A model generated the notes under the pieces. The model saw nothing but the letters and a program-made list of their open reading frames with translations, was not told the DNA's origin and made no database searches. Source: Adineta ricciae (taxonomy: Eukaryota > Rotifera > Eurotatoria > Adinetida > Adinetidae). From it: a stretch of DNA of 64,000 nt. Of this stretch, positions 11,508 through 57,156 are shown one piece after another. Where the stretch lies: NCBI GenBank assembly GCA_905250025.1, contig CAJNOJ010000268.1, positions 1 to 64,000 of the forward strand. Reading direction: 5' to 3'. How positions within the stretch are numbered: the first letter of the stretch is position 1; the number at the start of each line of letters is the position of its first letter. Position numbers and translations under genes: made by a program.

Positions 11508-12008
11508 TGTAAATGAAATCAGTTACTGTTAGAGAGTACTACTTATAGAACATCAATAATTAATTGATCTTTCTGTAAATCAATATTTGTTTAGACTCTA
11601 AACGAGGGCCCTGTCTCTATCGATACGAGTCGATAAGCTAATAAATTTTCTATTCTTTCCTATCATAATATTCACGAATCAGACGATGGCGTCGTCAATC
11701 TCAAGGCGTACCCATCAAGGTGTATTAAAATACATCTCTGAAAGAAAAAAAAGTCGTTTGACGGAAAACACTTTTCCCATCATTGGTTATGCACAGTTTC
11801 ATCTATGAATTTTAAAAGAGAAAAAAAAGAATTTCCTGAAGTAATATTCTGAAGTGCTGTTTTGTTAGCATTCTCTTTTTCTCGAAGTATACTTTGCTAA
11901 ACATCAAACATCAACGATTAGGCATTTAGTAAGTAAAGATCTGTTACCGCTCATACCCTCAAAATATGTTTATGCATAACGGGGCATATTTTGAATAATC
12001 TCTTTGTC
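11508..12008. other. Intergenic/promoter region
   Basis: About 500 bp upstream of the methyltransferase. No coding region or clear element is seen. Confidence 0.5.
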
Positions 12009-12887
12009 ATGTTGTCGCCGAAATCTCTGATCATTTTATTAATATTCATTATCATAATTCTTGGTATCTACATATACCGAACTCCAACCATTGTACCATC
12101 GTATCGCTCGTCGTCGTCGCCATCCTCCAAGACTTGTTTGGAGTCATATGATCCTCATATATTTCACAAAATTTCCTTTCATTCTTCAATGGTTCATGTA
12201 ACCGGTCCTGTGATGATTAATTACTGGATCCAGAATAAAACTGGTTTTGAACTCGGTGGTCCTTCGCATTTTACATGGGCACCTTTGGGCGTCTACGAGT
12301 CTGCATTAAGATTAGACGTGACCAATTTCGCAGCGAATACTCTCTGGGAATCAAATTTGAAAGACAATTCAGATTTCGTTTGGAAAAATCACTCGAAAGG
12401 CAAACAATATGTACGAGATGCTGTCGATCTAAAAGGTATTCCTAGTGAATTCTACGATTTTGTTTTAGCTTCTCATGTTCTCGAACATATCGCTAATCCG
12501 TTCAAAGCATTACTCGAATGGATAAGAATTTTGAAACCGAATGGTGTGCTCTTGATTATTTTGCCATTGAAAACGGTGACATTCGATCATAAGCGTGACG
12601 TCGTTCGATTGGAACATTTGATTGAGGATTATCAAAAACAGACTACAGAAGCTGATCTGTCGCATTTGGATGAAATACTTCGTCTGCATGATTTAGGAAT
12701 AGATCAAGCTGCTGGTAATCTCGAAGCGTTCAAAGCTCGCTCAATGAAAAACTTGGAAAACCGTGGATTACATCAACATGTTTATGATCAAGAACTTTTG
12801 TATTACATGTTTATGTGCTTAAATTTAGATGTAAAACTGCAGAAAATATGGGATAATAACAATCTAATCATTGGACAAAAACGGTAA
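12009..12887 (+). CDS. Membrane-anchored SAM-dependent methyltransferase (copy 1)
   Basis: Intronless gene of 292 aa. The first ATG is at 12009; the open frame extends 18 nt further upstream but without an ATG. Residues 4-22 are a single hydrophobic segment (IILLIFIIIILGIYIY), making a type II or signal-anchored protein. The methyltransferase fold follows: GGPSHFTWAPLGVYE, DAVDLKGIP, then the motif around YDFVLASHVLEHIANPFKA and LKPNGVLLIILP (post-motif strand). The C-terminal half (FDHKRDVVRLEHLIEDY, LHQHVYDQELLYYMF) matches a class-11-type family I associate with bacteria, algae and fungi rather than animals. A close paralogue sits at 44867-45739 on the other strand. The substrate is unknown; a Golgi or ER lumenal small-molecule or glycan substrate is an inference. 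Confidence 0.85.
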   Translation: MLSPKSLIILLIFIIIILGIYIYRTPTIVPSYRSSSSPSSKTCLESYDPHIFHKISFHSSMVHVTGPVMINYWIQNKTGFELGGPSHFTWAPLGVYESALRLDVTNFAANTLWESNLKDNSDFVWKNHSKGKQYVRDAVDLKGIPSEFYDFVLASHVLEHIANPFKALLEWIRILKPNGVLLIILPLKTVTFDHKRDVVRLEHLIEDYQKQTTEADLSHLDEILRLHDLGIDQAAGNLEAFKARSMKNLENRGLHQHVYDQELLYYMFMCLNLDVKLQKIWDNNNLIIGQKR

Positions 12888-13016: not shown

Positions 13017-14157
13017 CTAGCTGTTTGATAATCTTCGCAGTGCAAGATTCACGTCTTTTACAACATTTACTGTTTTCGAAGGTATATTTCTTCTCGATTC
13101 GGTTAACTCTTGCGATTCTTGATGAATTGAACGCTTTTTGCGAAGCAGCCCACAGATTGTGTCATCGAGAAGTTGAAAGAATTCTCTTCTGTATAAACTT
13201 CCTGATAAAGTGAATCTATGTTTAAAAGAGCAAGATGACACATCATTTGAAAGTATTCCTAGCAAAAAAAACTAGAATTACTTACAAGTAGAAACTAATA
13301 CTGTTATTTGTAAATGCCAGCAATCGAACCACTTGAGTAACTAAGGTTTCCACTGCTTGCTGATAAGTACTTTTGACAAAATTTTGTGTGAATGTGGAGT
13401 AAAGCTTTTGAATTGCTAATGGTAATGTCAATGAAATCGTAAAAGTCACTTGAACAAGTAACATTTTAATCAATTGACGATCTCGTTTTTTCAATTGGTC
13501 AACTTTTCGTGCATTCGTATCGGTAGGATTCACACGCGTGTGAGATTGATGAACATTGTAGAATGTTCCTAATCCAACTATCGTCATCATCACCGGTGGC
13601 GTAAAACTAAATGTTGCAAAGTAAAAGAAGTCGTAGAAGACTCGATAAAAACCAGCTTCTGCATAGCACGATGGTCCAGTTTTCAATTGTTCAATTGTGA
13701 ACAGACCCCAAACATGCGAATACAAGATTAAGACAATTACGGTTGTCGAACAGACGAGAAAGCGTGATGTTTTCAGACTGCTCAATTGCCGACGACGCGC
13801 TGATTTTGAACTGACACAATAACGATCTACGCTGGCAAGGATAGTAAACCAAGACGAAAGAACCATTGACGAATGAAGAATAAAATATCGAAATCGACAA
13901 TATCCTAAATTGTAAGAGCTGGGATCTATACCAAACCCATCGGAAAGAATTCGTGAGAGTAAACCGAGGAATATGACATTTAAATTAGCGATTGACGAGT
14001 AAAAGAAATAAGTTGAACAGGGGTTCTTTTTCAATTGAGAACGAATAAAAATCAAGAGATTGAGAACGTTTCCAACACAACCAAAGACTAATAATGGAAT
14101 TCCATAGTATTGATAAAGAGCAGTGACAGCATTTTTGATAAGACTAGTGCTAGACAT
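13017..14157 (-). CDS. Rhodopsin-class 7TM receptor, DRYC type (copy 1)
   Basis: Two exons (13286-14157, 13017-13215) with a 70-nt GTAAGT/CATAG intron join in frame to 356 aa. TM1 contains FGCVGNVLNLLIF and TM2 TYFFYSSIANLNVIFLG. TM3 ends in SVDRYC, replacing the usual DRY followed by V/I. ECL2 has CYAEAGFYRVFYDFFYF. TM6 and TM7 follow TFTISLTLPLAIQKLY. The intron falls directly after the last helix (ISFYL), at the same codon as in the paralogue at 30447-31580, with which most helices align. The intracellular tail is basic (RRKKRSIHQESQE region). This is an orphan receptor; a peptide ligand is a guess from the general resemblance to peptide GPCRs. Confidence 0.88.
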
Positions 14158-16014
14158 TCTCGAATGATCTTACTTGATGCTCTGAAATGCAAGAAAAACA
14201 AGAAAATACTTTCTTATATGTCTTCTACACTCTAAGAATATGACTCGTCTTGTGTTTTCAATGGAAAAGAAAGAATATGATATTTTATTTAACACGTTTT
14301 TTTCACTCTGACTCAATTTCACATTGCTTCTTAAAGATAAAGAGGTATTTCCATACATTTTCTTAGTACGCCTCGAAGTAAAAGTAAAATTCATGTTTTC
14401 AGGATATCACGGTGACATATTTACCTTTAATGTTCTTTTACGAAGAAAATATCGAAATTTTAGCAGAAAAAAAACATTTCTTTCACTGTTTCATTGATTT
14501 GCTTTCAATGTGAAACTAACTGTTTGCATCTGAATGATTTCTTTCATGGAAATCAGCGCAAAAGACCTGAAATGTTCTTATCCCTGACATATCTGTAGGA
14601 AATAAGGATATCAACAGGGGTAATTTACATCGACATTCATACAATCTCATAGGGAGAAACTAAAATGTAATTATTTGGTATAGATATTAAGACGTCGGAA
14701 ATGAACAGGATACATTGGCTCTAGTCATGTCAGTAATAGACATAGAAAAATGAAGACTCTTTCCAGGAGATGATATTTTTTTTGAATATTACAATCAAAT
14801 GCATTCACAATTGTAAATAACCGTGATATGTTCGTTTAGTTTCCGCTCCGTGGGATACAAAACCATTTGTGTTGGTTTTTATTGAAATAAAGATGGTAAA
14901 TCTTGGCATTTTTCTTTTGGTACACACTTTTTCTGATCGTTTCTTTGAGGATTAAGCAAAGATACCATAGTTGTTCTTATTAAAAATAGGAATGTAAACC
15001 ATTTCGAGATATAAATCTATCTTCAAGCTAATTAAACGCAAAAGTTCTCATCGTTTGAATAGAGATCTAGCAATTATTAATCAATATGTGTGTTTGATTC
15101 TACCTCATATGATAGCAGCTATTCGAGCTTTCCTATTACGATTAGCTATGTTTATGTCTAATTAAACCGACAAATGAATAGACAAAAAAAATCAGTCAAT
15201 CGTAAATGTATGCGATCTGTAGGTATCTAAGAATCACATGAGAATATATGTACTGCTTCAACTGAAGATTAATAGGTTTGTTTACGTTCATATTGAAGTG
15301 TTATATTGTGACCTAGGAATACTAAATATATTTGCTTAGTTGTTTGTTTGAGACAACTTGTCGAAGTACAATCTTCGGACAGAAAAACTGAAAACACTTT
15401 CAACTAACTCGAATGTTAATAAAGAACACAAGAAGAGACGAGCGTCACAAGATCTTTGGTTTCAAGTACGAATGCTTAACTGTGACCTGTCAGTATATCA
15501 TCGCCGCCATTTCACGTTACAAAAATATCTACAGTCGACACGTTTTCATCAAAGTATTTTCATCGGAAAACAAAATCCTTCATCAGGTTTTAAAAAAGGT
15601 GTGAGGGACAATAACACTTTTATCACACCGACACCCACGTCTCTTCTTTTTACTACGTAGATACAGTTATGTCGAACTATTTTCTATAATTAGTAAAACA
15701 TCATTCTTCAATATATAGAACGAGTTTGATCAAAGAAATTGTTCAAATCGTCAATGACCATCTTGTCTTGTGAGGTTTTTTTAATTTCTAGGTAAATGTA
15801 ATTATGTCTGGCATTATAACGATTTCCAAAAATGTCACACGAAAATAGATATTTTGTATATTCTCTATCCTAGAATATATTTCAAGTACACCCGCCTTGA
15901 AGTTCATCTGAAACAATACGCCAAGTCGTTCATCTTCTGCTGTAATTAGATTCTGATTATTGTGGATTGATATTGAATAATCATGCAATAATGCTTTTAC
16001 AGTCGTGATTTTCA
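14158..16014. other. Intergenic, no gene supported
   Basis: About 1.85 kb of AT-rich sequence. A minus-strand 74-aa frame just upstream of the receptor and overlapping plus-strand frames around 15358-15660 have no ATG-initiated, domain-bearing content. The 3' portion may include decayed upstream exons of the pseudogene that follows. Confidence 0.45.
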
Positions 16015-24688: not shown

Positions 24689-26205
24689 CTAGACAGATTT
24701 TTGAATAAAACTCAACAAGGAATTGTCGACTTTTCTCTCACGAATGAAGTCTGACACCAAATCGTATCTTTGAATTCGATTGTTCTTCCAATCAGCGACA
24801 TAAAGATTTCCATCGAAATCAAATGCTATATCATTGGGACAATGTAACTGGTCGGATCCTTTTCCACATCCGTTTCCACCAAGGATAATTTCCCCTTCCT
24901 TTTGTCCCTCACACCAACGCATAACTCGATGGTTTCCACAATCTGCGATGTAAATTCTATTCCAATCATCCACAAATATGCCTGCAGGAAGAGATAACTG
25001 GTCGAGTCTATTACCATTACCATTGCCACCAGCAACGATAGTGCCTTCTGTCGCGTGTTTTTGCCACTTCATCACACGATGATTTTGTCCATCGGAGATG
25101 TACAAACAATCCTGTTTATCAAGGAATATAAAACTGGGAAAATGAAGTTGATTGAGTTGGTCACCACATCCATTCCCACCGGCAACTAACATTCCTTGTT
25201 CATCTCCAATAGTCCATCGCCTCACTTCATTTTTCTCACAATCAGAGATGTAGAAAGAACCATGATTATCCATAATCAGACTGGCACAATCAATATTTTC
25301 AAAGAGAACTTTATAGTTTTGATCTAATAATTCGACGATGCGTCGATTTCCTCGATCCGCAATAATGACCGAATGATTTTCTTCATTCACACTAACATCC
25401 GTTGGACAGTTCAATTGTTTCGTTTCATTTCCGTCTTCGGATCCATTCGTGACAATTTCTCCTTCTATTGCATTGGGTTTCCAACGAACAATCCGATGAT
25501 TCCAATAATCAACGACATAAATGTTCTTATCTACGTCGAGCACAATTTTATACGGACCAGCGAATTGGTTTAAATGATTCCCTTGTTTATTCCCTCCCGC
25601 AACAGAATAACCATATCGTTTCCATTTGCTATGTTTCGTTTCTAAACAAGAGAACAGACGTGTACTCAGAATGCGTTCTCTCTTTCGCGTATAAACTTAC
25701 TTTGTAACGTTTCGACTGAAATTTTATTCACAAATGATGATGAATCTTGTTCCCGAAAGACCTTGGCTAAATTGTAGAACTCTTCTGTCATTTTTCGCAA
25801 TTCATCTCTCAAATAGTTTAAATTCATCTCATTGAATTCATTTTCTTCACGAACTTGTGTCAACTCGTTGGTTAATTGATGAAAATTCCTGCGAAGATGA
25901 TGCATAAATATATCTGTTTCTTCAATCACTTTCCGACACTCTTCCGCCATTTGTTGAATCTTTTCAATAGAACTTACTTCCCACAGATCGATTTCTTGTA
26001 GACTGGATTGATTTTGATTTTGTTGAGTCATTATCTCATTCAAGCGGTTGCAATTATCAATAATTCCATTTAGTTCTTCATTCAATGTTTCTTGATGTGC
26101 TGATAGATGAGTTGAACAAAATTCTTGTAGGCAGCCTTTGCACGAATATGTAATCTTAGGCTTGTTGCAGGTGCAGCAGAGTGTTTTGTTGTTTGGCATC
26201 GACAT
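24689..26205 (-). CDS. B-box / coiled-coil / NHL-repeat protein (tandem copy 1)
   Basis: Two exons (25701-26205, 24689-25641; 59-nt intron) give 485 aa. The N-terminus has a B-box-like finger (LCCTCNKPKITYSC, CLQEFCSTHLSAH). A coiled coil (about residues 35-160) precedes the splice after VETLQ. The second exon is a six-bladed NHL propeller. Repeated blades read GGNGxGxxLDQLxxPxxIFxD, then xRIYIADCGNHRVMRW. This is the layout of TRIM2/3/LIN-41-type proteins without the RING, so ligase activity is not expected; NHL surfaces bind RNA or protein. The second copy follows head-to-tail at 26492-27941. Both first exons are exactly 505 nt with the same phase. Confidence 0.9.
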
Positions 26206-26345
26206 TGCAGCGAACGTGACTTTGTGGAAAAAGAAGTGACTATCGATCGTAGTGATGAAATATGTACGAATGAGTCAACGAATAAGCAATAGACAGGTCG
26301 TTTGAGGGGGAAAAGCCAACTATGACGGATGAATGATTCTGTATT
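26071..26345 (-). repeat. Near-identical 5' tract shared by tandem NHL genes (copy 1)
   Basis: This stretch covers the first 40 or so codons plus 140 bp upstream of the ATG. It matches 27807-28081 at a constant 1736-bp offset, with only about three mismatches in the coding part and none that I can see in the 140 bp upstream. Flanking sequence on both sides diverges abruptly. Confidence 0.85.
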
Positions 26346-26491
26346 CGTTTGACGCAAAAGCACGTATCACACGTTAAACTTTCCCAGTTACCAACTATAC
26401 GAGAAAATATGTCAACGAATTTATTCAAATATCAAAATTGCTCCAGTAGAACAAAAAAAACGTGGATTTCTAATCATCGACTCAAAATAGA

Positions 26492-27941
26492 TTATTCGCC
26501 ACCGATCGGCAAGAACTTTAGCACTCGACTATTTCCCCAGTTTACAACAAATAGATTTCCATCGGAATCAAACGCTAAGCTCCTAGGGCAGCACAATTCT
26601 TTAGAATTCTCACTAATAACGATTTCGCCTTCTTTTGATCCTTCACACCAACGAACAATTCGATTGTTTCCAAAATCTGCCACATAGATCCGACCCAGTG
26701 AATCAACAGTCAACCCCGCAGGATGATTTAGTTGATTCAGATTCTTTCCTTTATGATTTCCTCCAGCTACAATGGTACCTTGTGAAGCACCTTTCCTCCA
26801 TTTCATAACGCGATGATTTCCTACATCTGATACGTAAATCGACTGCTCATCATCTACAAAGATACGCGCTGGTTGACTAAGCTGATTCAGTGCACTTCCT
26901 TGTCCATTGCCACCAGATACAATGGTTCGTGAATCTTCATTGCCAATTTCCCACCGCATGACTTCATTCTTGGCTCGATTACAAGCGTATAAGAGTCCAG
27001 ATCTATCCTGTGCTAAACAATGACAATCAACTTGGGTCATGAGAATTTCGATTGTCTTATGGAACCACCGAACGATGCGTCTATTGTCGCAATCAGCGAT
27101 GATCAACGATCCATCGCGTCCATCAACAATCACATCTGTGGGAGTAGACAATTTACACATAAAATTTTCCTTTTCATACCCATTTGTGACAACTTTTCCT
27201 TCTTTTTCGTTGAGCTTCCACTGAACAATACGATGATTCCAAGAATCAGCAATGTAAGCAGTGCTGTCTTTGTCTATGCAGATACTGCAAGGAAAATTGA
27301 GTTGAGTTAATCCCCGTCCTGGTTTCTCACCTCCGGCTATGATCTCACCATTTTGCTTCCATTTACTGAACTTTGTCTCTGGAGAAGAGATTTCAATGAG
27401 TAGTCTGCTGTCGTATGAGACTGACATGCAACTTACCTGTGGAAGACTTTGCTGATTTCCTCGTGAGATACGAGCATGAATATTGTTCGAGCGGACGGTT
27501 GACTGAATTGTTACATTCTTCTGTCATTTTCCTTAATTCATCTTTCAAATAGTTTAAGTTCATTTCATTGAATTCGTCTTCTTCACGAATTTCTTCAATT
27601 TGCTTGATTAAGCAATTTGACTTCTCTTGGAAATAATTTAGAAATATCTGTTGATCTTCCAGAAAACTCGCGTAGTTTCCAGCTATTTTGGGAGCTGTTG
27701 CAGTAGAATTCATTTCACACTGATCAATCAGCTTTAGAATTGAATACTTCCGAACTTGTTCGGAGAGCATTTGTTTGAATTGATTATAGTCATCGATGAT
27801 CAGATTTAATTCTTCATTCAATGTTTCTCGATGTGCTGATAGATGAGTTGAACAGAATTCTTGTAGGCAGCCTTTGCACGAATATGTAATCTTAGGCTTG
27901 TTGCAGGTGCAGCAGAGTGTTTTGTTGTTTGGCATTGACAT
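26492..27941 (-). CDS. B-box / coiled-coil / NHL-repeat protein (tandem copy 2)
   Basis: Two exons (27437-27941, 26492-27378; 58-nt intron) give 463 aa. The first 37 residues match copy 1, including the B-box cysteines. The coiled coil and the NHL blades are clearly diverged (for example NQLSQPARIFVDDEQSIYVS versus the corresponding copy 1 blade). Blades end with characteristic NHRIVQW, NRRIVRW, NHRVMKW and NNRIVRW motifs. The C-terminus is FLPIGGE. The pair is a tandem duplication whose 5' end has been homogenised. Regulation is probably shared, because the upstream 140 bp are identical. Confidence 0.9.
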
Positions 27942-28081
27942 TGCAGCGAACGTGACTTTGTGGAAAAAGAAGTGACTATCGATCGTAGTGATGAAATATG
28001 TACGAATGAGTCAACGAATAAGCAATAGACAGGTCGTTTGAGGGGGAAAAGCCAACTATGACGGATGAATGATTCTGTATT
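27807..28081 (-). repeat. Near-identical 5' tract shared by tandem NHL genes (copy 2)
   Basis: Partner of 26071-26345. Identity stops at about 28081, where GTATTTG replaces GTATTCG and the sequences then differ completely. That places the boundary roughly 140 bp upstream of the start codon. Confidence 0.85.
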
Positions 28082-30446: not shown

Positions 30447-31580
30447 TTAGGCTAAGTTTGATTGAGGATGAAGTACAGTTGCTGTTTGATTGAATTGATC
30501 TACTTGAACTACAGAAGACGCTGCAAACCGATTTTGTGCTAGGCGATAAATTCCACTGTTTTCACCGAATACAACTTTGACAAAATTAGCAATAAGTTGC
30601 CCTGTTTCTTGACGAAATCCCGCTCCCGAAAAAACAAATCTAAAGTATAGCTAAACTCTTCCAGGCTTCCAATAGATCAACTTTACTCACATATAAAAAC
30701 CCATGCTCGAGTTAATAAACACAAGCAATCTCATCAATTGAGCAATGAAGTTTTCAACTGCTACTTGATATGTATCTTTGTTAGCATTTTGTGTAAAAGT
30801 GGCGTAGAGTTTTTGAACAGCGATTGGTAAAGTCAAAATCACTGCACATATGAATTGAAGTAGAGTCATCTTGAGCAATTGTCGATCGCGTTTTCTTAAA
30901 TAACTATGATTTTTTTCATTATTAGACATTGGTGCGATGTGTGATCGCAGCTGATGAATGTTGTAATATGTTGCCAAGCCAACACCGATCATAACAATCG
31001 GTGGCGTAAAACTGTAAGTAGCGAAATAAAAGAAATCATAGAAGACTCTATAAGTGCCCGCTTGTGCGTAACACGATGGACCAGTTCGCAGTTGTTCAAT
31101 TGTGAACAATCCCAATGCGTGTGAATATCCCGCCAGAATAATGAATGCCGTCACAGCAACAAGATAACGCGAATTCTTTAAATTACTCTGTTGTCGTCGA
31201 TGAGCACTTCTCGAACTGATGCAATACCGATCAATGCCAGCAAGAATAGTAAGCCAAGACGAGAGAACCATCGAGGAGTGAAGCACATAATATCGAAATC
31301 GACAAAAGCCCAAATTGTTGGAGACAGGATCAATGCCGAAACCGTCCGATAAGAAACGGGAAACTAACCCGAAGAGTAGTACACTGATGTTGGCAATCGA
31401 TGACCAGAAGAAATAGGTCGAACATGGATTATTGAAGAGTCGTGGGCGTGTGAAAACGACGATATTTAACGTATTTCCAATGACACCCGAGATGAAGATG
31501 ACAATTGATGCATACCGATTGAATTGGATGGAAAAAGCGTTTACTGAATTGGCACTCATGAGTGACAGTAGGCTCAACAA
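30447..31580 (-). CDS. Rhodopsin-class 7TM receptor, DRYC type (copy 2)
   Basis: Two exons (30691-31580, 30447-30639; 51-nt intron) give 360 aa. TM1 (VIFISGVIGNTLNIVVF), TM2 with SSIANISVLLFG, TM3 ending in GIDRYC, ECL2 CYAQAGTYRVFYDF and TM6 ILTLPIAVQKLYATF match the receptor at 13017-14157 closely. The single intron interrupts the same codon after FY in TM7. The C-terminal tails differ: this one is uncharged and ends in TATVLHPQSNLA, whereas copy 1 is basic. The two are dispersed paralogues 17 kb apart on the same strand. Ligand unknown. Confidence 0.88.
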
Positions 31581-32226
31581 ATACTGATTTATGTCACCAT
31601 CTTATGGGCATATATATATATGTATATACACGTGAGTGGTGAAAATTTTCACGCTGTTGATTAACTATTTCAGATAATCAAGTTAGCTTTCACATAATTT
31701 CTACTATTCAACTGCAAAAGCCTTGTTATTACAATAAAGCTTAATACACCGTATACACAGATCCATCCCATAGTCAATACAATATAATGACGTGTTTATG
31801 AAAATTGTTATATTTGTTTTTGAATATAACATATTCAATTCAATGCAAACCTTCGATGTTTGTATAATGGACGGTTATATTGAGAAATTAACCCTGCAGG
31901 ATGAATGCACTGTGAGTTTACCTTCCTGTAAGAGAAACATAGCACAGCAAAATCTTTAGTATACTGATAGGCACTACAGTAAAAAGTGAAAACCTCTAGT
32001 GATGAAAAACACGACCCGCACACGTCTCTTCTCTCGACACTGTAACTTTCACTTTTTTCCTTGTACCTCATGCAGTCTCGTTGTTCTTCAACTCCATGTG
32101 CACAAACACGAAAGAAAAGTATATTCACACTATGTTGGAAAAAAGTAAAATAATGTACGGAAGTTCGTCGATATTTCAAAAATTTCGCAAATAAGAAGCT
32201 CTCAACAGTTCGAACTGATATCGACT
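31581..32226. other. Intergenic, no gene seen
   Basis: Includes a short TA/TATG simple-sequence tract at 31607-31630. A 114-codon minus-strand frame at 31835-32179 shows no domain and is probably chance. Confidence 0.45.
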
Positions 32227-33997
32227 ATGAATTTGACCACCTCAGGCAGTGGCACATTAAATATTTCTGAACGAAAAGATTCTTTCGTATGGTTTCATGC
32301 TGGTATTGATGAAAACGACCTGAATTTCCAAGAGAATTTAAAACAACTGCAAACTATCCACCACATCGTTCACACGTTCAACGATATCGACCAGTGCATC
32401 GATTTTCTCACAGATCTTTCACGTGATACCGTATCTCTTATCATTCCTGACACATCAAATCGACAATTGATCATTCTGATCAATGAAATTCCTCAACTTC
32501 ATGCCGTCTTTATCCTATACAAAAAAATCACGTCACACATGAACTATGGAATAACACCTGGTCGAAAGTCAAAGGTTTCTTTGTAGATATAAACTCAATT
32601 TGTGAAGCCGTTAAACAACCTACAAAAAATTTTCACCATAGTGGCTTTAATAATCTCGATGGTTCGTTCGTGTACCTCAAGATTCCGATACAGATTTTAT
32701 CGAACATCGATTTTGGGCAAGAACATGTGCGACGGTTTAGCAACTACTTTCGTTCAATACTCGTTGACACCAGCGATAATCACCAAACTGGTAGATTGGA
32801 ACAATTCGGACGAGAATATTATACTAAGACATCTATTACGTGGTTCACATATAATTCTCCTTTCGTTATCAGACTAAATCATGCATTTAGAACCATGGAT
32901 ACCAATTTTATCCTCCTGATGGTTTTCTACATTCACAGCAATTCTGTAAACATCAATCCAATGAAATATTGACTGTCTATCGTGGACAAAGTATATCTCA
33001 AAGTGAATTTGTTGGAATAAAGAACAAAAAGGGTGAATTGATCTACTGCAATCACTTTTTTATCTGTGACTAAAGATTCTGATATATCTTTACTCTATGC
33101 TAGAGTCAATGATAACAATCCTAACCTGACAAATATTCTTTTTGTGATAAAAATTGATCCTTCTCAATCGACGGCACCATTTGCTTCAATTACTGAATAT
33201 TGTTACTATCACACCGAAGACTAAGTACTACTTTCAGTGTGCAGCGTTTTTCGTATTCACGATGTTCAGCAATTCGAGACAAATGAACATCCCAATCAAA
33301 TTCATTTATTGCTTACGAATGACAATAGCGAAAGTCATCGTCGGCTGAACGACAGTATACGACAAAAAATCAAAGGACTTACACCACAGCATTCTTTAGA
33401 TTTGCTTCTATGGAAAATCCATGCACCGGATACACGGGAAGAAATACAATCGGAGGAGCAAGAAGGATCCGCCGTTCCTGATCCCATCGAACCAGTTAAA
33501 TATAGCTTCGAGAATCACGAAGATGCCAAACAGTTGTATGAACAAGACCTGAAAAACTTCGATGAAACTATATTTTCATGTCGTTACAGTTTATCTACTA
33601 TATATTCAAACATCGACGAAATACATAACAGGCTAAACGCGTTTTCAGAAGTGCTATTGAATTACGAGAAATGTGTCCCGGATTACTCTGGTTTAGATCA
33701 GTCATACAGCAAACTCGCTACTGTATATTATATGATAAAGAAAACTATTTAGAAGCACTAAGATTCTTCGAAAAAGCTCTGGCGATCAAAGAGCAACATC
33801 TATTCGGCCGTGATCATCCAAATTTGGTGCTCAACTATGATTTTATCGGTACGATTTACGAGCTGAGAATGGGTGACTACAAAACAGCACGTTTCTATTA
33901 CAAACGCGTTTTAAATCTCGTTCATCGGCATTCACTACCTCTAAGTGATTCTGACATTCAGCGATGCAAAAACCATCTTCGACAAATCAAAAATAAA
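32227..33997 (+). pseudogene. Fossil ART-TPR gene (mono-ADP-ribosyltransferase-like domain plus tetratricopeptides)
   Basis: The parts, in order, are an N-terminal regulatory region of the bdelloid ART-TPR type (IDQCIDFLTDLSRDTVSLI, NEIPQLHAVFILYKK), an ART-like core between about 32.6 and 33.3 kb, and a TPR region (33.5-33.99 kb; ALAIKEQHLFGRDHPNLV, DYKTARFYYKRVL). The gene is clearly broken, with roughly half a dozen interruptions, mostly in the ART core, while the TPR end is better preserved. The layout matches an intact family that is expanded in bdelloids. The decay looks moderate, since motifs are still easy to recognise. It should be non-functional. Confidence 0.75.
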
Positions 33998-34000
33998 TAA

Positions 34001-34478: not shown

Positions 34479-37400
34479 ATGACAAGTGAAAATCAGCATA
34501 TGGTAAGAGAATTTAACCGTATTTTTGAGAGTTCTCTCTCCATTGACAGTTTCTAGGATAAAACAAAGTTTTCATCAACAAATGTCGATTCGCCTGGTCA
34601 AATGCGTGGTTGGTTCAAATTAATTGAAACGATTCGACAGACAGATCCACCATCAAACAGTAGTACAACACCAACAATGATTACTACAAGTACAAATGGA
34701 CATGGTTCATCACATTCATTAGATACTATGCAATTTGTCGATGATCTCCCGCCAGAATCGCCACCAACCGAAGCGCTAGAGGATATTCCTATGAACACCA
34801 CGCAGAAATCGTCTGGTTCAAAACGTTCATCCAGTCGTCATAAGAGAATTACTATACGGAAATCAGTGCGTTCTAAAGAATTTTCCTTAGCCAATAACGC
34901 ATCAACTGAAGATATTCTCTCTCCACGGAAACGTCAATCAATCGATTCATCGTTGAATATTTCCATCATTCCAATTGCGACGGATCTGCAGTCTCTACCT
35001 GGACATGCTGAAGATGAACTACGCGACCAACGCTACCGTGATTACGCCGATGTTAACACATTATCCGTACATCTAAATTCATGTTTACATATCGACAGGA
35101 AGTTCGCTTCATCAAATAAGCAACAATTTTTCAAAACACGTCATAATATTTTGAATAAAATCTTTAAAATGAATTATTTCAAAATATCGCCGGATACGTT
35201 TGATATGAAAAAGGAAGAACTAGACAAGACTGATATTCCATCAGTGTCATCATCATTCAAATTGGATTGGTCAGTCAATCGGCGAAGTTCCTCGTCACAC
35301 CGACACGAACCAAGAAATCTCTTTCATATCCTTCAATCAAATCCTAAAAAACATATTCTGAAAAGACCAAAGCATGAATACAAAAAAGAATTATCTACCG
35401 AAGAACAAATCCAGCTTCATTATGAACATATCCAAAAGCTTCTAGTGCGTACATATTATCCACATTTTCATATTGCTGTAGAACGTGGCCATACCTTTGG
35501 TTCGAAATCAAAACTCTTCGCAAAGCAAAGTCATTTACCAATCGTTATCGATCCCCCATCACCGGCAGATGTTGATGATTCCATGACGATCAAGTTAAAC
35601 TCACCGATCTCCACATTTGAACACGATTCGAGAAAACGGCGACAACGATCGAAAGAGAAACATAACAAGGAACGACCTCGGCCAATAGCGTCAACTGACC
35701 GTCGTGTAAGCGAAGAAATTCCAGCCGTTGTTATTTTACAATCTCCACCGCCATCAAGAGAAGTAAATAACAATACAATTGACAGTCGAAAACGAAAAAT
35801 ATCAGTGACAGTTCATCCAGTTGTTCCCGAAAGAAAAAGGAAGAAGTTAATAATATTACCATTATCACCAGAACTTATCAGCAATGAGTCGCAAGATCTT
35901 TCATGTTCAGATAGGTAAGGTACAAATCTTTATGATTATCATAGAGTCCTATTGATCTTTTAGTGACAATGATATTCTGCCAGATGAGCTACCCAAACAG
36001 AATATTATTAAGAATGGTCTTCGTTCGAACTTCTACAAGACCGCGAATGAACTTGATTCCAAATCAGCGAAGTATATTATTGTCATGATTATTCACTTTT
36101 CAATAAAACCAACGAATATTCCTTTGTTGTAGTACCAAAAATCGCTCCACACGTCGACAACCAATCTCTTCAGGCTCATTGCCACCATTTTATACCGCTA
36201 TATTCCAATCTGATGAGAACAAGCTCTCCTACATAGATTACAAACTTCCCTACGATATATATTGGCATAGTCAAAAACGAACCAATGTCACTATTACTTC
36301 ACCTTTGAAAGCTGTCGCTCAACCAAAGAAGAAATCTAGTGAATCTAAACAAAAGCAAGAATTACCAAATAAACGCCCTATTCCTCCACCAATTCAGCAC
36401 GATTTTCCATCTCCAACTAGAAAGCATCTTCACAAAGTTTCAGTGAAAATAGAAGAATTAACTGAAGAAGAAAAACGAATTGTTTCCCAATCATCGATAT
36501 TTCTCAAACGGAACTTTCGACGAATCAAAGAAAAAAAAGAGTGCACAGATAAAAACAACAATCAACATAAACAACAAGCTGATGAATTATCCGTGCCACT
36601 TCTCTTCCCGCAAAATTATTATCATCCATACTCGCCACAACAACTATCTCATTCCAAATCTATTTCGCATAGAGGTAAAACACATCTCCTCAGTCTGTTC
36701 TTTGCAACCTGAGAAAATTTGTTTCAGATTTCTTATATTTGTTCGCTAATCATATTCGTCGATCTCATTTCGGTAAAACTGGTCAATACTACCTCGAATT
36801 AGTTAATCAAACTTGCTATTATGCTCAATTAGCACAACTGACACTCGTGCTCAAGGACATGTTCGAACTCTTACTGAATTACAAATGCCATAATAGTGAT
36901 GTTTATCCATCGAATGCTCTAAAAAAATGCCCATTAAAGCGATTATTTCCCATGTATTATGAGATTATTTCCAAACCAATAGATTTATCAATCATACATA
37001 GTAAATTAGACAATGGAGAGTATCTGACGTATGCATCCTTCGAACAGGATTTCTTCTTGCTATTCTCCAATGCCATCGTATGTTGAGTCATTATTTTCTT
37101 ATTCTTAAGATAACGCTTTTGCTTTTTAGACTTACTGCGGCGAGGATTCCGATGTCGGACGAGCTGTGAAAGAACTACAAAAGTATTTTACCGATATTTT
37201 AAAAGTTCATTATGGACTCACGTTTGACTTATTCAATGAATTAAATGATACCAATCAAAACGAGAAAAATCTCGCGATTTTTCAAGATTTTGTCACACAT
37301 TTTCATGAAAAAGAAGTGATTGATGGGCAAGTCAGAGAAGCTATCTACGATATCGTATTCAACATAGATCGTACTTCACCTATCGTATATAAAACAGTCA

Positions 37401-38661
37401 ATCCTAATTCAACCAATACGAATCGAACAACAAAAACCACTCTTTTCAACGATTATATCATCCATTGCCGATGTGAATCTGTTTTTGATGAGACTTCAGT
37501 GGTACGATGCTATGCTTGTCAAGTAAGATACATCTACCGACAAATTCACCCATGATTTTCCTTCTATTTAGTTATGGCAACACACCGCATGTGTTAAAAT
37601 CACCGATACATCTCGTCCATACTTTTGTTTTGAATGTCATCCACTTTGTCAAACAAATCCATTGAATTGTCTCAAAACAAATGTACGTATAACAGAAGCA
37701 ACCAATCCAGCATTCTATTCGACTATAACACGTTCCGATGGTTTGATGATTCGCGTTAACGACTCTTATTTTGTTGCCAAACAAGGAGAAGAAAGCAAAG
37801 ATTCAACATCGTATGAGATTCTTTGTATCGAACGTCTTTGGTTTGATGAGAAGAACGTTGCACGTGCATCGGGCTTTTACTATTTACGTCCGTATGAAAC
37901 ATTTCACGAAGTAAATCGTAAATTTTTCCCCAATGAAGTATTTCGTTTTCCATCAACGACTGATTCCATCGAACTTACATCGATCATTCGTCCGTGTTAT
38001 GTATTAGATCCGGGAACGTTCTGTAAAGGAAAACCTTTCTGTGAATATGGTAGTCGAATTTTGTCTACAGATCTATTTATTTGTGAATATCGTGTGGATA
38101 AACTAGCACGGGCATTTACACGCCTACCGAAATCGAAACATATTGGGATTAATACCAAACCTTATTGTTTCGATAGTCACATTGAAAAACTATCGATTAA
38201 ACGAGATTATCAGGTAGAATCTCATTGAAATCTTAATCTATTCTATTGGAATATTTTAGCCGCATCAGAAGGAATACTATGAACAACAACAAACACCTCA
38301 ACGACGTTCAACTACGCACCCGTTGAAACTCACTAGTAAACAATTCGATGAAAAATCTTCCCATATCGATGGGATTATCGAACGAGTCTATTGCCATTAT
38401 CATCATCCAAATTTGATACCGACTGAAACTAAAATCGCTCCCGACCAGTTCTTTCAACAACCGGTAACCGACGAACAAAGTCTAAGTCGTGGCAGTAAAC
38501 GTCTACGTACTAAAAATTCTACTCCATCAGTGACAGTCAACAAAAAACGTCGAACACATTCTTTCTCGTCGAACGACAATCCAATTGAATCGACATTCGA
38601 TTCTACAATCTCAGCATTACTTAACGAGTTAATTCAGACAATTTCATCTCGCTTTGACTAG
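34479..38661 (+). CDS. ASH1L: ASH1L-like chromatin protein lacking the SET domain
   Basis: Eight exons (34479-34502, 34557-35914, 35964-36071, 36133-36674, 36728-37077, 37130-37522, 37572-38213, 38260-38661) splice in frame to about 1272 aa. The N-terminal half is Ser/Arg/Lys-rich and disordered. Then come ASH1L landmarks: KQNIIKNGLRSNFYKT, IDYKLPYDIYW (the strand before AWS), EKRIVSQSSIFLKRNFRRIK (just after post-SET in ASH1L), a bromodomain (KRLFPMYYEIISKPIDLSII), a PHD finger (CRCESVFDETSVVRCYACQLWQH and CFECHP) and a BAH domain (CIERLWFDE, FYYLRPYETFHEVNRKFFP, YVLDPGTFCKG, KPYCFD). AWS, SET and post-SET, about 200 residues, are absent with no intron large enough to hide them. H3K36 methylation by this protein is therefore not possible. 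Confidence 0.9.
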
Positions 38662-38819: not shown

Positions 38820-39903
38820 ATGCATGAATCAGCAGGTCGAACAAGCAATTCATCCTCATCATTGTTATTATCGTCGAATTCCAATCGTTCATTGAACATC
38901 CATCCACCAAAACTGACTCGAACATTACAACAAGATAATGCGTCGAAAAAGCTCAAGATTAGCCATACGAACGGTGTCAAACCAGCCGTCGATGGTAATT
39001 CTGTTGCTCGAGGTAAGTCCATTCTTTCTCATTTTTCCATAAAGAAAGTTTCACGCTCTCTTCAGGCTCCAAAGGTGATAATTCTCTACGATGTCCCTTA
39101 CGACAAACTTTACCAATCTTTAAACAACCTGTTACGCACTATCCAATCGAGCGCGATGAAGTCAAAGCGCAAGTTATCAATCCAAATAACCCAACAGCGT
39201 CGGCTAACGGTGGCAAACCGAGTGAGAAAACCAAACCACGGCAATTATTCTGGGAAAAACGCTTTCAAAACATTCGGCCCATCGATATCGATGAAAAACC
39301 CTTCGAACACGTGAAATTGCCAGAACCTATAAAAAGTATTTGTAGACCTGGATGAAACTAAAGAGAACCTATGACAGTTAGGACATCTGGATAAAGCGAT
39401 GATCTGCTTCTTCTTCTAATCAGAATACTGAAAAGTCTTGTACCTGACATTTAATACTCTACAAATGAAAGTATGATTTTTCCTGCTCGCTATTAATTAA
39501 TCATTTCAAAGATTTCTGCCAGAGATCATTAATCTCATCGAGACCTTCTTAGCACTCAAGTAATGTCAATATATGTTTTTACCTACTTTTTTTGCGCAGG
39601 TGTTGGTTTAAATATGTCGCCAGAAACTGTGGTTATAAGTTTAGCAACATCACTTCATCTCTATTGCAATTCGCGTGCATTATTCGGCCAAAATAAACAA
39701 TTCCAAAAGAATCCTACGATTTATATTCAACGTGATCAACCATTAATTGACGTTCGTTAAATGAAATTCCAATCTGCATCTTGTATTTTTCACTTTCTTT
39801 CTAGTATGTGAACATCACCGATGAACATATCCGTGCTCAAGAAGCCAAGGTCAATGAATTACGCAAACGTATTCAACAAACAATGTGCAAAAACGAAGTT
39901 TGA
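38820..39903 (+). CDS. MBD2/3: MBD2/3-like NuRD subunit lacking the methyl-CpG-binding domain
   Basis: Four exons (38820-39012, 39066-39335, 39600-39751, 39805-39903) encode 237 aa. The N-terminal 60 residues are Ser/Asn-rich and carry no MBD fold. From about residue 70 the protein follows MBD2/3: LRQTLPIFKQPVT, PRQLFWEKRFQNI, VGLNMSPETVVISLATSLHL, and the C-terminal helix YVNITDEHIRAQEAKVNELRKRI, which in MBD2/3 pairs with p66/GATAD2 in NuRD. The ATG is at 38820, and the preceding 158 bp cannot hold an MBD exon. So it should act as a NuRD scaffold without 5mC binding, as in C. elegans MBD-2. It follows the ASH1L-like gene on the same strand. A 264-nt intron is the longest in the pair. Confidence 0.9.
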
Positions 39904-44866: not shown

Positions 44867-45739
44867 TTATCGTTTTTGACCGATTATTAATTGGTGATAA
44901 TCCCAAATATATTGAGATTTAACTTCGACGTTTAAACAACGATAAATGTAGTAGAGTAATCTTTGATCATAGACATGTTGATGCAATCCGCGGATTTCGA
45001 AATTTTTCTCCGATCGTGCTTTGAAAGCGTCGAAACCACCAGCTGCTGCATCTCTTCCAAGATCATGCAAACGAAGAATCTCATCTAGATGTGTCAGATC
45101 TTTCTCTGTGACCTTCTTCTGATAATCATCAATCAAGTGTTCAATTTTAGCCACATTACGCTTATGGTCGAATGTAACATTTTGATAAGGTACAATAACA
45201 ATCAGTAAACCATTTGGCTTCATTATTCTCAACCACTCAAGTAATGCTTTGAATGGATTCGCGACATGTTCTAAAATATCAGTTCCACATACAAAATCGT
45301 ACGATTCATCAGGTATGCCGTGCAAGTCGACTGCATCACGTATGAAATGCTTTCCCAGAGTTCTATTCTTCCAAAGAAATGGTCCGCCTTCTTTAATACC
45401 CGATTCCCATAGAGTTTGTGCGGCGAAATTTGTCGCATCGACTTTCGCTGCAGCATCATATAAACCCAAATGTCCCCAAGTGGACACCGATGGTGCACCG
45501 ATTTCAAAGCCTGATTTGTTTTCCACCCAATGGCTTAACGTTTTTGGAACCATGAACTGTACCATTGACATGTGAAAAACTGATTTGTACAATCCATTGG
45601 CATCAAATGAATCGAGACACATTGTTGAATCAGTTGGTGTTGCCACTGGTAAAAATTTTCTTGTTCGTAGATACTTCAGAATGGCCAAAACGACAAGGAC
45701 AAGAAAAAATAGCATAAATAGAGGTTTTGGTTTGACCAT
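44867..45739 (-). CDS. Membrane-anchored SAM-dependent methyltransferase (copy 2)
   Basis: Intronless 290-aa gene with an ATG at 45739. Residues 6-22 form the N-terminal anchor (PLFMLFFLVLVVLAIL). The catalytic region parallels the copy at 12009: FEIGAPSVSTWGHLGLYDAA, DAVDLHGIPDESYDFV, DILEHVANPFKALLEW, MKPNGLLIVIVPYQNVTFDH. The C-terminal HQHVYDQRLLYYIYRC block and the terminal IIGQKR are shared. The two copies are on opposite strands 32 kb apart, with different neighbours, so this was a dispersed rather than tandem duplication. The family resembles non-metazoan enzymes. The substrate is unknown. Confidence 0.86.
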   Translation of the reverse strand: MVKPKPLFMLFFLVLVVLAILKYLRTRKFLPVATPTDSTMCLDSFDANGLYKSVFHMSMVQFMVPKTLSHWVENKSGFEIGAPSVSTWGHLGLYDAAAKVDATNFAAQTLWESGIKEGGPFLWKNRTLGKHFIRDAVDLHGIPDESYDFVCGTDILEHVANPFKALLEWLRIMKPNGLLIVIVPYQNVTFDHKRNVAKIEHLIDDYQKKVTEKDLTHLDEILRLHDLGRDAAAGGFDAFKARSEKNFEIRGLHQHVYDQRLLYYIYRCLNVEVKSQYIWDYHQLIIGQKR

Positions 45740-46245
45740 TACGGGAAATCACTAATCTTTGTTCTTCAAGTGTGCTGATTTGAGTTTGTCACTAAGGAAG
45801 AATCGAGTATTGTAAGTAATTAGAAAAGGCTTTCTATATTTAAAACGTTCATCGGAAATGTCTCCGCAACTCTTGGTTGGAACGTGCGAGAAAGAGTTTC
45901 CATTTTTTTCATCAAAGAACAAACAAGAAGTTACTCTTTCTTCAAGGGACAGCAAACACGACATATGGCGCGAAGAAAAACTTTCTCTGCCTAAAAGAGG
46001 AAAATGTGTTTAATAAATGCTTATTGTATGACGTGTGTTTCCAAGCAATTCATTTACGGTTGAGACGGTGAGCGTTGTCCTTTTGATAACACGCTCGTTC
46101 GTTGTTTAATATTTTACATTTAAAACTAAATCTAAACATCGTTTGCTTATTCACATGATTAGAATAATAGATAAGAGATTAATCGGAATGTACAAATAGT
46201 AAGAAAGAGAGAGAGATTATTTGGAATGTAGTAGATGATTTTGAT
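45740..46245. other. Intergenic, no gene seen
   Basis: Spacer between the promoter side of the methyltransferase and the 3' end of the claudin-like gene. A GA-rich tract lies at 46203-46218. Confidence 0.5.
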
Positions 46246-55705: not shown

Positions 55706-57073
55706 TTAGTAGCCTTCGAATGTATTTTTAAAAACGTCGAGATCGCCATAAGATACAAACCAAATCTTATCAAATGCGTATCGTATAGGCCCATCTGAAT
55801 TCATCAGTGAATTATTTAACACTTCCGCGAATAAACTTGCAATCATTTCCATAGAATTATTAAACGCACCTGTTCCAATTGGTCCCAATAGTAAATATGT
55901 ATCACTGCCATCTTTTTCGCTATTAGCAACTGCTGATGCAATTATCGCTCGAAATTTTCTCAAAGTACGTGACCGTATGTCCGCTTCGTCACGTGGTGAA
56001 GGCAGCCTGTAGAGTCCTCTATCACCTGTTAAATCATAGCCTGTATGTAGAAAACAAATCATACAAGATTTGTGTGCTATCATAGATGTTTAAACACTTA
56101 CACGCAGCCACAATTAAATCTGCGCAGCGTGTTAACAAACCGGATGCACGAAAAAACTGTACATTCTTTACATAAAGCACACCAAATTCTGGTATGAAGT
56201 AACCGCCACCCATCATCCTATATTTCAAATCTAGTAGTGCACGATATCCAGTAGAATGGTAAAGAATATGCTAAATAAAGAATTATTAGTGTTTAAATGA
56301 AATTCGTCTGTGTGAACATTCACTCATACTTGTTCTTGCATGTAGACACCTTCAAGAAAATCTCCACCGGGTATACGTTCATCAGCAAAGTCCAAGACAA
56401 TTGCTTGTTTTCCTTTTGGTACGTCAATTAGGGCATGGTGAATTAACGTTGTGATATAATCAATTGTGCCCTGATTTTTCCGCTTGTTTACCGGCCAAGT
56501 TAGTAGAGTATGTCTTGCATGAGTATCTGATATGGTATTGTAAAACTTACAAGTTGTAAGTGATTCAATTTGATGATAATTCCAATATATTTTCAGTTCG
56601 CTTGGTAGAAAACCTTCTGGGCGATTTTTAATGATTTGATCACGCGCCCAGGCCAGTACACTGAGCTCCATCGGTACTTTAAATTCCCAATATATACCAA
56701 TGTGTCTAGGTGAATATTGTCGTTGATACGGTTCAGTTTGATTTCTTAGATAAATGATAGTTTTCTCCACATTTGACCATTGGATGTTGGGATGACAATC
56801 ATTGATAAGTTTGATTAAGCGTTTATATCTTGGTGTTTGAATGAATCCCTTTAGGAGAAAAAGCATTGTTCGACGACTATTATGTCGATCTAGGTAGATT
56901 TTCCTTTTTTCTCCGCCGTCTTGTGGTAATGCAATGCTCACCACTGAGCAAATATCCGATTCAGTCAGTGAATGTATCGGAACGTATATGTTTCGCGGGA
57001 ATGTGTGTTGTAAAGAGAATTGAATGTAAATTGCCAGAAAGTTTATTATATTCAACATAGGTAATTGATGCAT
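55706..57073 (-). CDS. Microbial-type PARG-like macrodomain protein (DUF2263) with signal peptide
   Basis: Three exons (56330-57073, 56102-56270, 55706-56040) give 415 aa. The first 22 residues look like a signal peptide (MLNIINFLAIYIQFSL after MHQLP). The central and C-terminal regions follow microbial poly(ADP-ribose) glycohydrolases: QAIVLDFADERIPGGDFLEG, then YMQEQ at the catalytic loop, GGGYFIPEFGVLYVKNVQFFR, CADLIVAACYDLTGDRG, and a final LLLGPIGTGAFNN with IASLFAEVL. The usual loop is GGG...QEE; here the first motif is GGD and the last Glu is Gln, so activity is uncertain. The GABA-receptor-like gene ends 83 bp upstream on the same strand. Bacterial origin is plausible but untested. 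Confidence 0.78.
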
Positions 57074-57156
57074 AATATATTATTTCAAACAAAAGAATGT
57101 GAAAATTTATGTAAGACGCAACCATAAAGTGATGAAAGCGCTAAATTATATTTTTT

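Follow-up and report, generated by a model that had tools for sequence, protein, structure and literature searches.

The locus described here raises the question of whether a gene of the ASH1 family can be without its methyltransferase and still be kept, and, if so, what the remaining protein would do. The role of ASH1 itself is unsettled, as it may act mainly as an H3K36 methyltransferase or as a chromatin-bound scaffold too (PMC8426247, PMC5963871). The gene lies in a stretch of 64,000 nucleotides of Adineta ricciae DNA, referred to below as the window, in which a first-pass annotation had placed an ASH1L orthologue of eight exons.

34479..38661, + strand: SET-less ASH1 gene, 8 exons, 1,272 aa, a splice model free of stops and with GT-AG introns
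34479-34502, 34557-35914, 35964-36071, 36133-36674, 36728-37077, 37130-37522, 37572-38213 and 38260-38661, + strand: exons of the ASH1 gene

The coordinates of that eight-exon model proved exact. From the start at 34479 to the stop at 38661 the reading frame is uninterrupted by internal stops, and all seven introns (54, 49, 61, 53, 52, 49 and 46 nt) begin with GT and end with AG. The frame used is open in every exon, and at least one stop occurs in 15 of the 16 alternative exon frames, the only other open one being a frame of exon 3 (108 nt). Least certain in the model are the start codon and the first exon of 24 nt. A bdelloid spliced-leader sequence, looked for on both strands of the window, had no copy there, which speaks neither for nor against a bdelloid. 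Because the introns measure 46-61 nt, a SET exon cannot be hidden inside the gene, as had been argued from the start.

The assignment to ASH1L had to be weighed against polybromo-1, which heads the list when the whole protein is compared with the PDB by phmmer (1.5e-41). It does so because its several bromodomains and BAH domains add up, and its best BAH stretch reaches only about 33 bits. The human ASH1L PHD-BAH structure (8vlh), in contrast, matches aa 904-1142 in one stretch with 108 bits (E 1.9e-30), and the human ASH1L bromodomain-PHD structure (8zxc) matches at 7.7e-16, its bromodomain aligning over aa 710-814. Polybromo-1 (PBRM1) shares bromodomains and a BAH with the window gene but carries several bromodomains where Pfam finds a single bromodomain, a single BAH and a PHD here, and it is not known to have a PHD. 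On the score per stretch, the number of domains and the presence of the PHD, polybromo-1 was rejected, and the original identification as ASH1L stands. A search for PHD-BAH relatives gave 5 pattern matches in viral contigs and 47 in prokaryote genomes with none confirmed, a result of little information as these collections hold no eukaryotes.

36925..37168, + strand: bromodomain, aa 744-807, Pfam 1.2e-17, crossing the intron at 37078-37129
37466..37637, + strand: PHD finger, aa 907-947, Pfam 0.0042 and below the gathering score, crossing the intron at 37523-37571
37746..38126, + strand: BAH domain, aa 984-1110, Pfam 1.2e-11, part of the match to 8vlh

These positions confirm the canonical order of bromodomain, PHD and BAH, and it is the part that should precede them that is absent. 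No SET or AWS domain was found by Pfam in the 1,272-aa protein at E<=1, and no Pfam family at all at E<=10 in the 181-aa region around the two landmarks described below or in the 496-aa N-terminal part, a search limited by HMMER filters, which discard most weak matches. The same Pfam library recovers both domains from human ASH1L (SET at 1.5e-27, AWS at 6.8e-18). With human ASH1L AWS-SET-postSET as a tblastn query against the whole window, the best match (E 0.54) lies about 9 kb upstream of the ASH1 gene, within an ORF judged NHL-like by eye; the human PHD-BAH query, used in the same way as a positive control, finds the ASH1 gene in the right place at 6e-32. A phmmer search of the human ASH1L SET sequence against 2,116 stop-to-stop ORFs of the window (at least 20 aa long) likewise gave nothing better than E 0.43, and SET was found by Pfam neither in 19 other window ORFs nor in the neighbouring MBD2/3 model. 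With Pfam, tblastn and phmmer in agreement and their controls working, the proposal that AWS-SET-postSET is cleanly absent, with both flanking landmarks kept, holds.

36230..36268, + strand: putative MRG15-docking segment, aa 530-542, YIDYKLPYDIYWH, aligned with human ASH1L 6ine and 6ago
36239-36250, + strand: YxLP within this segment
36266..36469, + strand: K-, P- and S-rich linker, occupying the place of AWS-SET-postSET in human ASH1L
36443..36547, + strand: candidate counterpart of the Caf1-binding motif, aa 601-635, with 6 of 7 invariant residues
36470-36523, + strand: 18-aa core carrying the invariant residues of the Caf1 motif, aa 610-627

What the two landmarks are bears directly on how the loss is to be read. 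In fly and vertebrate Ash1 a single FxLP lies about 40 residues before AWS, and its change to RxRP in fly Ash1 abolishes MRG15 binding (PMC5963871); the docking signature has since been refined to FxLP(x)2-3-hydrophobic (PMC8701324). The first landmark corresponds to the segment of human ASH1L with this FxLP, and YKLP-YD-I in the window protein fits the refined signature but for its Y, where the signature has F, which would make YxLP the putative docking site for MRG15. In the alignment with 6ine (human ASH1L) KRIDFQLPYDILWQ is aligned with SYIDYKLPYDIYWH, and 6ago aligns likewise from R, the query in both cases being a fusion of the window segment and human SET. Eight of the 13 residues are identical to human, the F of FxLP being Y. 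The human motif emerged only with this joined query, which lets the alignment extend, and the region between the landmarks, searched alone by phmmer against the PDB, gave no match at E<=10. The support for the segment is thus its position and a shuffle test, not an independent database match: its score against the human segment is 50, whereas 5,000 shuffles never exceeded 36 and the runner-up among the six-frame ORFs reached 34.

The second landmark matches the motif through which Ash1 binds Caf1 (Nurf55); in the fly protein this motif spans 1582-1616 and has E1591, V1595, F1601, L1602, R1604, N1605 and K1608 as its absolutely or highly conserved residues (PMC10148413). In the window protein E610, V614, F620, L621, R623 and N624 are kept in register and R627 replaces the lysine at K1608. 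Both residues kept at E1591 and R1604 are ones whose replacement in the fly (E1591A or R1604A) abolishes Caf1 binding (PMC10148413), and docking of Caf1 can be predicted on this basis. Shuffling the whole protein reached six of the seven residues 2 times in 5,000, and shuffling the surrounding 168-aa region 6 times in 50,000; no other six-frame ORF of the window reached six, the next best having 5 of 7. The motif is expected between post-SET and the bromodomain, and the candidate lies in the corresponding place. In a weak single-sequence AlphaFold model of exon 4 (pLDDT 53) the sole helix, aa 608-648, spans the motif, and in the published model the motif on Caf1 is helical as well (PMC10148413); a model of exon 7 alone (pLDDT 38) was too weak for use.

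Between the tryptophan of the MRG15 segment and the valine of the Caf1 motif lie 72 residues, a count that replaces the first-pass figure of about 60. In human ASH1L 6ine the tryptophan of the motif stands at residue 32 and post-SET closes the chain at residue 267, before the Caf1 region, so that 235 residues stand there against the 72 found here, and the size of the gap therefore fits removal of the catalytic module. Judged from the sequence, the two putative partner-docking motifs are kept and the ASH1 catalytic module that should lie between them is gone. The window gene shares with Ash1/ASH1L, the catalytic subunit of the Ash1-MRG15-Caf1 (AMC) complex, the putative MRG15-docking segment, the Caf1-binding motif, the bromodomain, the PHD and the BAH in the same order, but differs in having no AWS-SET-postSET (and so no H3K36 methyltransferase), YxLP for FxLP, and no GRP-core AT hook that could be found. 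If the landmarks are the docking motifs for MRG15 and Caf1, the meaning of the gene shifts from a remnant bearing chromatin readers to a scaffold that would dock partners without an enzyme.

How well the readers themselves are preserved was judged against human ASH1L, with human residue numbers assigned to the PDB sequences from the residue letters that PMC11883000 names. Each of the eight PHD zinc ligands has its counterpart in the alignment with human ASH1L. Of the residues that form the human H3K4me2/3 site (I2586, M2599, W2608, D2584 and D2595; PMC11883000), I2586, W2608 and D2595 are kept, and M2599 of the methyl-lysine cage and D2584 are changed to V and Y respectively, which we count against the reading proposed below; further changes in this PHD are Q2601 to R and S2618 to D. 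K2807 and Y2809, which join the BAH to the PHD in human ASH1L (PMC11883000), are kept, and the other named contacts around R2635-R2642 are not evidently so. The human BAH binds linker DNA, and the human bromodomain has no acetyl-lysine asparagine and binds DNA through two basic patches, K2477-K2479 and K2524/R2528/K2529 (PMC11883000). In the window protein the first patch keeps two of its three residues (K, R) and the second none (T, E, D). The window bromodomain is also without the acetyl-lysine asparagine, as in human; at what we take to be this position C stands in the window protein and Y in human. Scanning the 1,272-aa model for AT-hook patterns found no GRP core, only KRPK and ERPRP.

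The reading that we consider rather probable is that the gene encodes a catalytically empty Ash1-MRG15-Caf1 scaffold that would still read chromatin, a proposal drawn from a single sequence. Such an enzyme-free ASH1 would still assemble MRG15 and Caf1, its PHD-BAH would bind H3K4-methylated nucleosomes and linker DNA as in human ASH1L, and the MRG15-Caf1 complex would thereby be kept on chromatin without methylation of H3K36. A different enzyme would then be needed for H3K36me2, or the enzyme-free protein might be a competitor of a SET-bearing ASH1 for binding to MRG15 and Caf1. MRG15 is known to act on ASH1 by releasing the autoinhibitory loop of the SET module (PMC8106495), and as this is its known job, an MRG15 motif kept without SET suggests another role for the docking. 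Perhaps this second, SET-independent role lies in bringing the chromo barrel of MRG15, which binds H3K36me2/3.

That a reader or scaffold role is workable follows from the fly, where an ASH1 stripped of SET binds chromatin, in metaphase as well as interphase, and gives partial rescue of the null mutant (PMC8426247). The engineered deltaSET protein resembles the window gene in that SET is missing and BAH kept, but it is a laboratory construct in a protein with AT hooks, whereas the loss in the window is a natural one that takes in AWS and post-SET as well. Disrupting BAH together with the AT hooks is lethal in the fly (PMC8426247), and that no GRP-core AT hook was found here counts against the scaffold. 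Fly catalytic mutants lose HOX expression nearly as severely as nulls, and MRG15 mutants lose HOX control too (PMC5963871); loss of SET should for this reason be costly, barring another copy, H3K36me2 from elsewhere or an altered requirement.

Another copy is the core of an alternative that we regard as a real possibility, if a little short of an even chance, namely a division of labour in which a SET-bearing homeolog elsewhere provides the methyltransferase and the copy in the window is a specialised reader or scaffold, or a natural dominant-negative that would compete for MRG15 and Caf1. The kept docking motifs would make such competition possible. In Adineta vaga, SET proteins of the Trx-G/Ash1/Set1/MLL type come as a pair or quartet, as do those of SETD2 and SETD8 architecture (PMC8885841), and a SET-bearing copy is possible because the group containing Ash1 does so, but the text of that survey lumps Ash1 with Set1/MLL, which weakens the argument. 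Alternatively, the gene could be a decaying copy that is no longer needed, which has lost SET and whose remainder is not yet degraded. The altered reader positions (M2599 to V, D2584 to Y), the loss of one basic patch of the bromodomain and the Y for F in FxLP would all agree with decay, but 1,272 codons in eight exons without a stop or frameshift, seven of seven GT-AG introns, and kept zinc ligands and docking motifs make it improbable. More improbable again is an assembly error or a recent haplotype-specific deletion that dropped a SET segment between 36240 and 36470, as the gap holds 72 in-frame linker residues that bear no sign of AWS, SET or post-SET, and a collapse would have had to join the ends in frame and yet leave unrelated coding sequence between them.

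Beyond the single gene, the enzyme-free scaffold could be the form of ASH1 throughout the lineage, with the methyltransferase excised precisely between the docking motifs, the AMC converted from a writer to a pure reader and scaffold, and MRG15 docking selected beyond SET activation. This extension appears rather doubtful to us; if true, it would show that selection keeps ASH1-MRG15 docking for some use besides SET activation. Among the matches listed in the open-licence PMC literature, none was seen to report a SET-less ASH1 in nature. A natural SET-less ASH1 with counterparts of both docking motifs would be an evolutionary case of separation of function, a natural likeness of the mutant that fly geneticists engineered, and could reveal roles of ASH1 beyond its enzyme activity. 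It leads to the predictions that the protein still binds MRG15 and Caf1, and that docking of MRG15 has a use even with no SET to activate.

The next gene downstream begins 158 nt after the ASH1 stop.

38820-39760, + strand: MBD2/3-like gene, 207 aa, 3 exons

Its model matches MBDa, the p55-binding region, at 1.2e-10 and MBD_C at 2.9e-07, p55 being a name of Caf1 (PMC10148413); no methyl-CpG-binding domain was found in it by Pfam, which fits a lineage without 5mC. MBD domains in A. vaga are described in SETDB1 variants and BAZ2A/TIP5-like proteins, and the words MBD2, MBD3 and NuRD do not occur in the main text of that survey (PMC8885841). The ASH1 and MBD2/3-like genes are thus neighbours that are each without the hallmark domain of their family and that each keep the region for the same partner (Caf1/p55), a shared pattern that may be a coincidence.

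Elsewhere in the window, Pfam found no match in three ORFs upstream of ASH1 (33225-33749, 32149-32583 and 32487-32969); the ORFs at 32149-34000 (+) presumably resemble ADP-ribosyltransferase plus TPR genes. A weak match to a microbial-type PARG catalytic domain (E 0.0026, below the cutoff) lies at 56327-57079 (-). Two Methyltransf_11 ORFs at 11937-12884 (+) and 44870-45748 (-) look related by eye and each have a hydrophobic N-terminal stretch. Two similar tandem genes occupy 24692-28010 (-), with a 300-nt repeat whose copies are 1,736 nt apart and 64% alike; the ORF at 26495-27523 (-) encodes an NHL-repeat protein (Pfam) and that at 24692-25696 looks the same by eye. Finally, two related ORFs for rhodopsin-type GPCRs (7tm_1) at 13285-14169 (-) and 30690-31601 (-), about 17 kb apart, share a 176-nt segment that is 76% alike.
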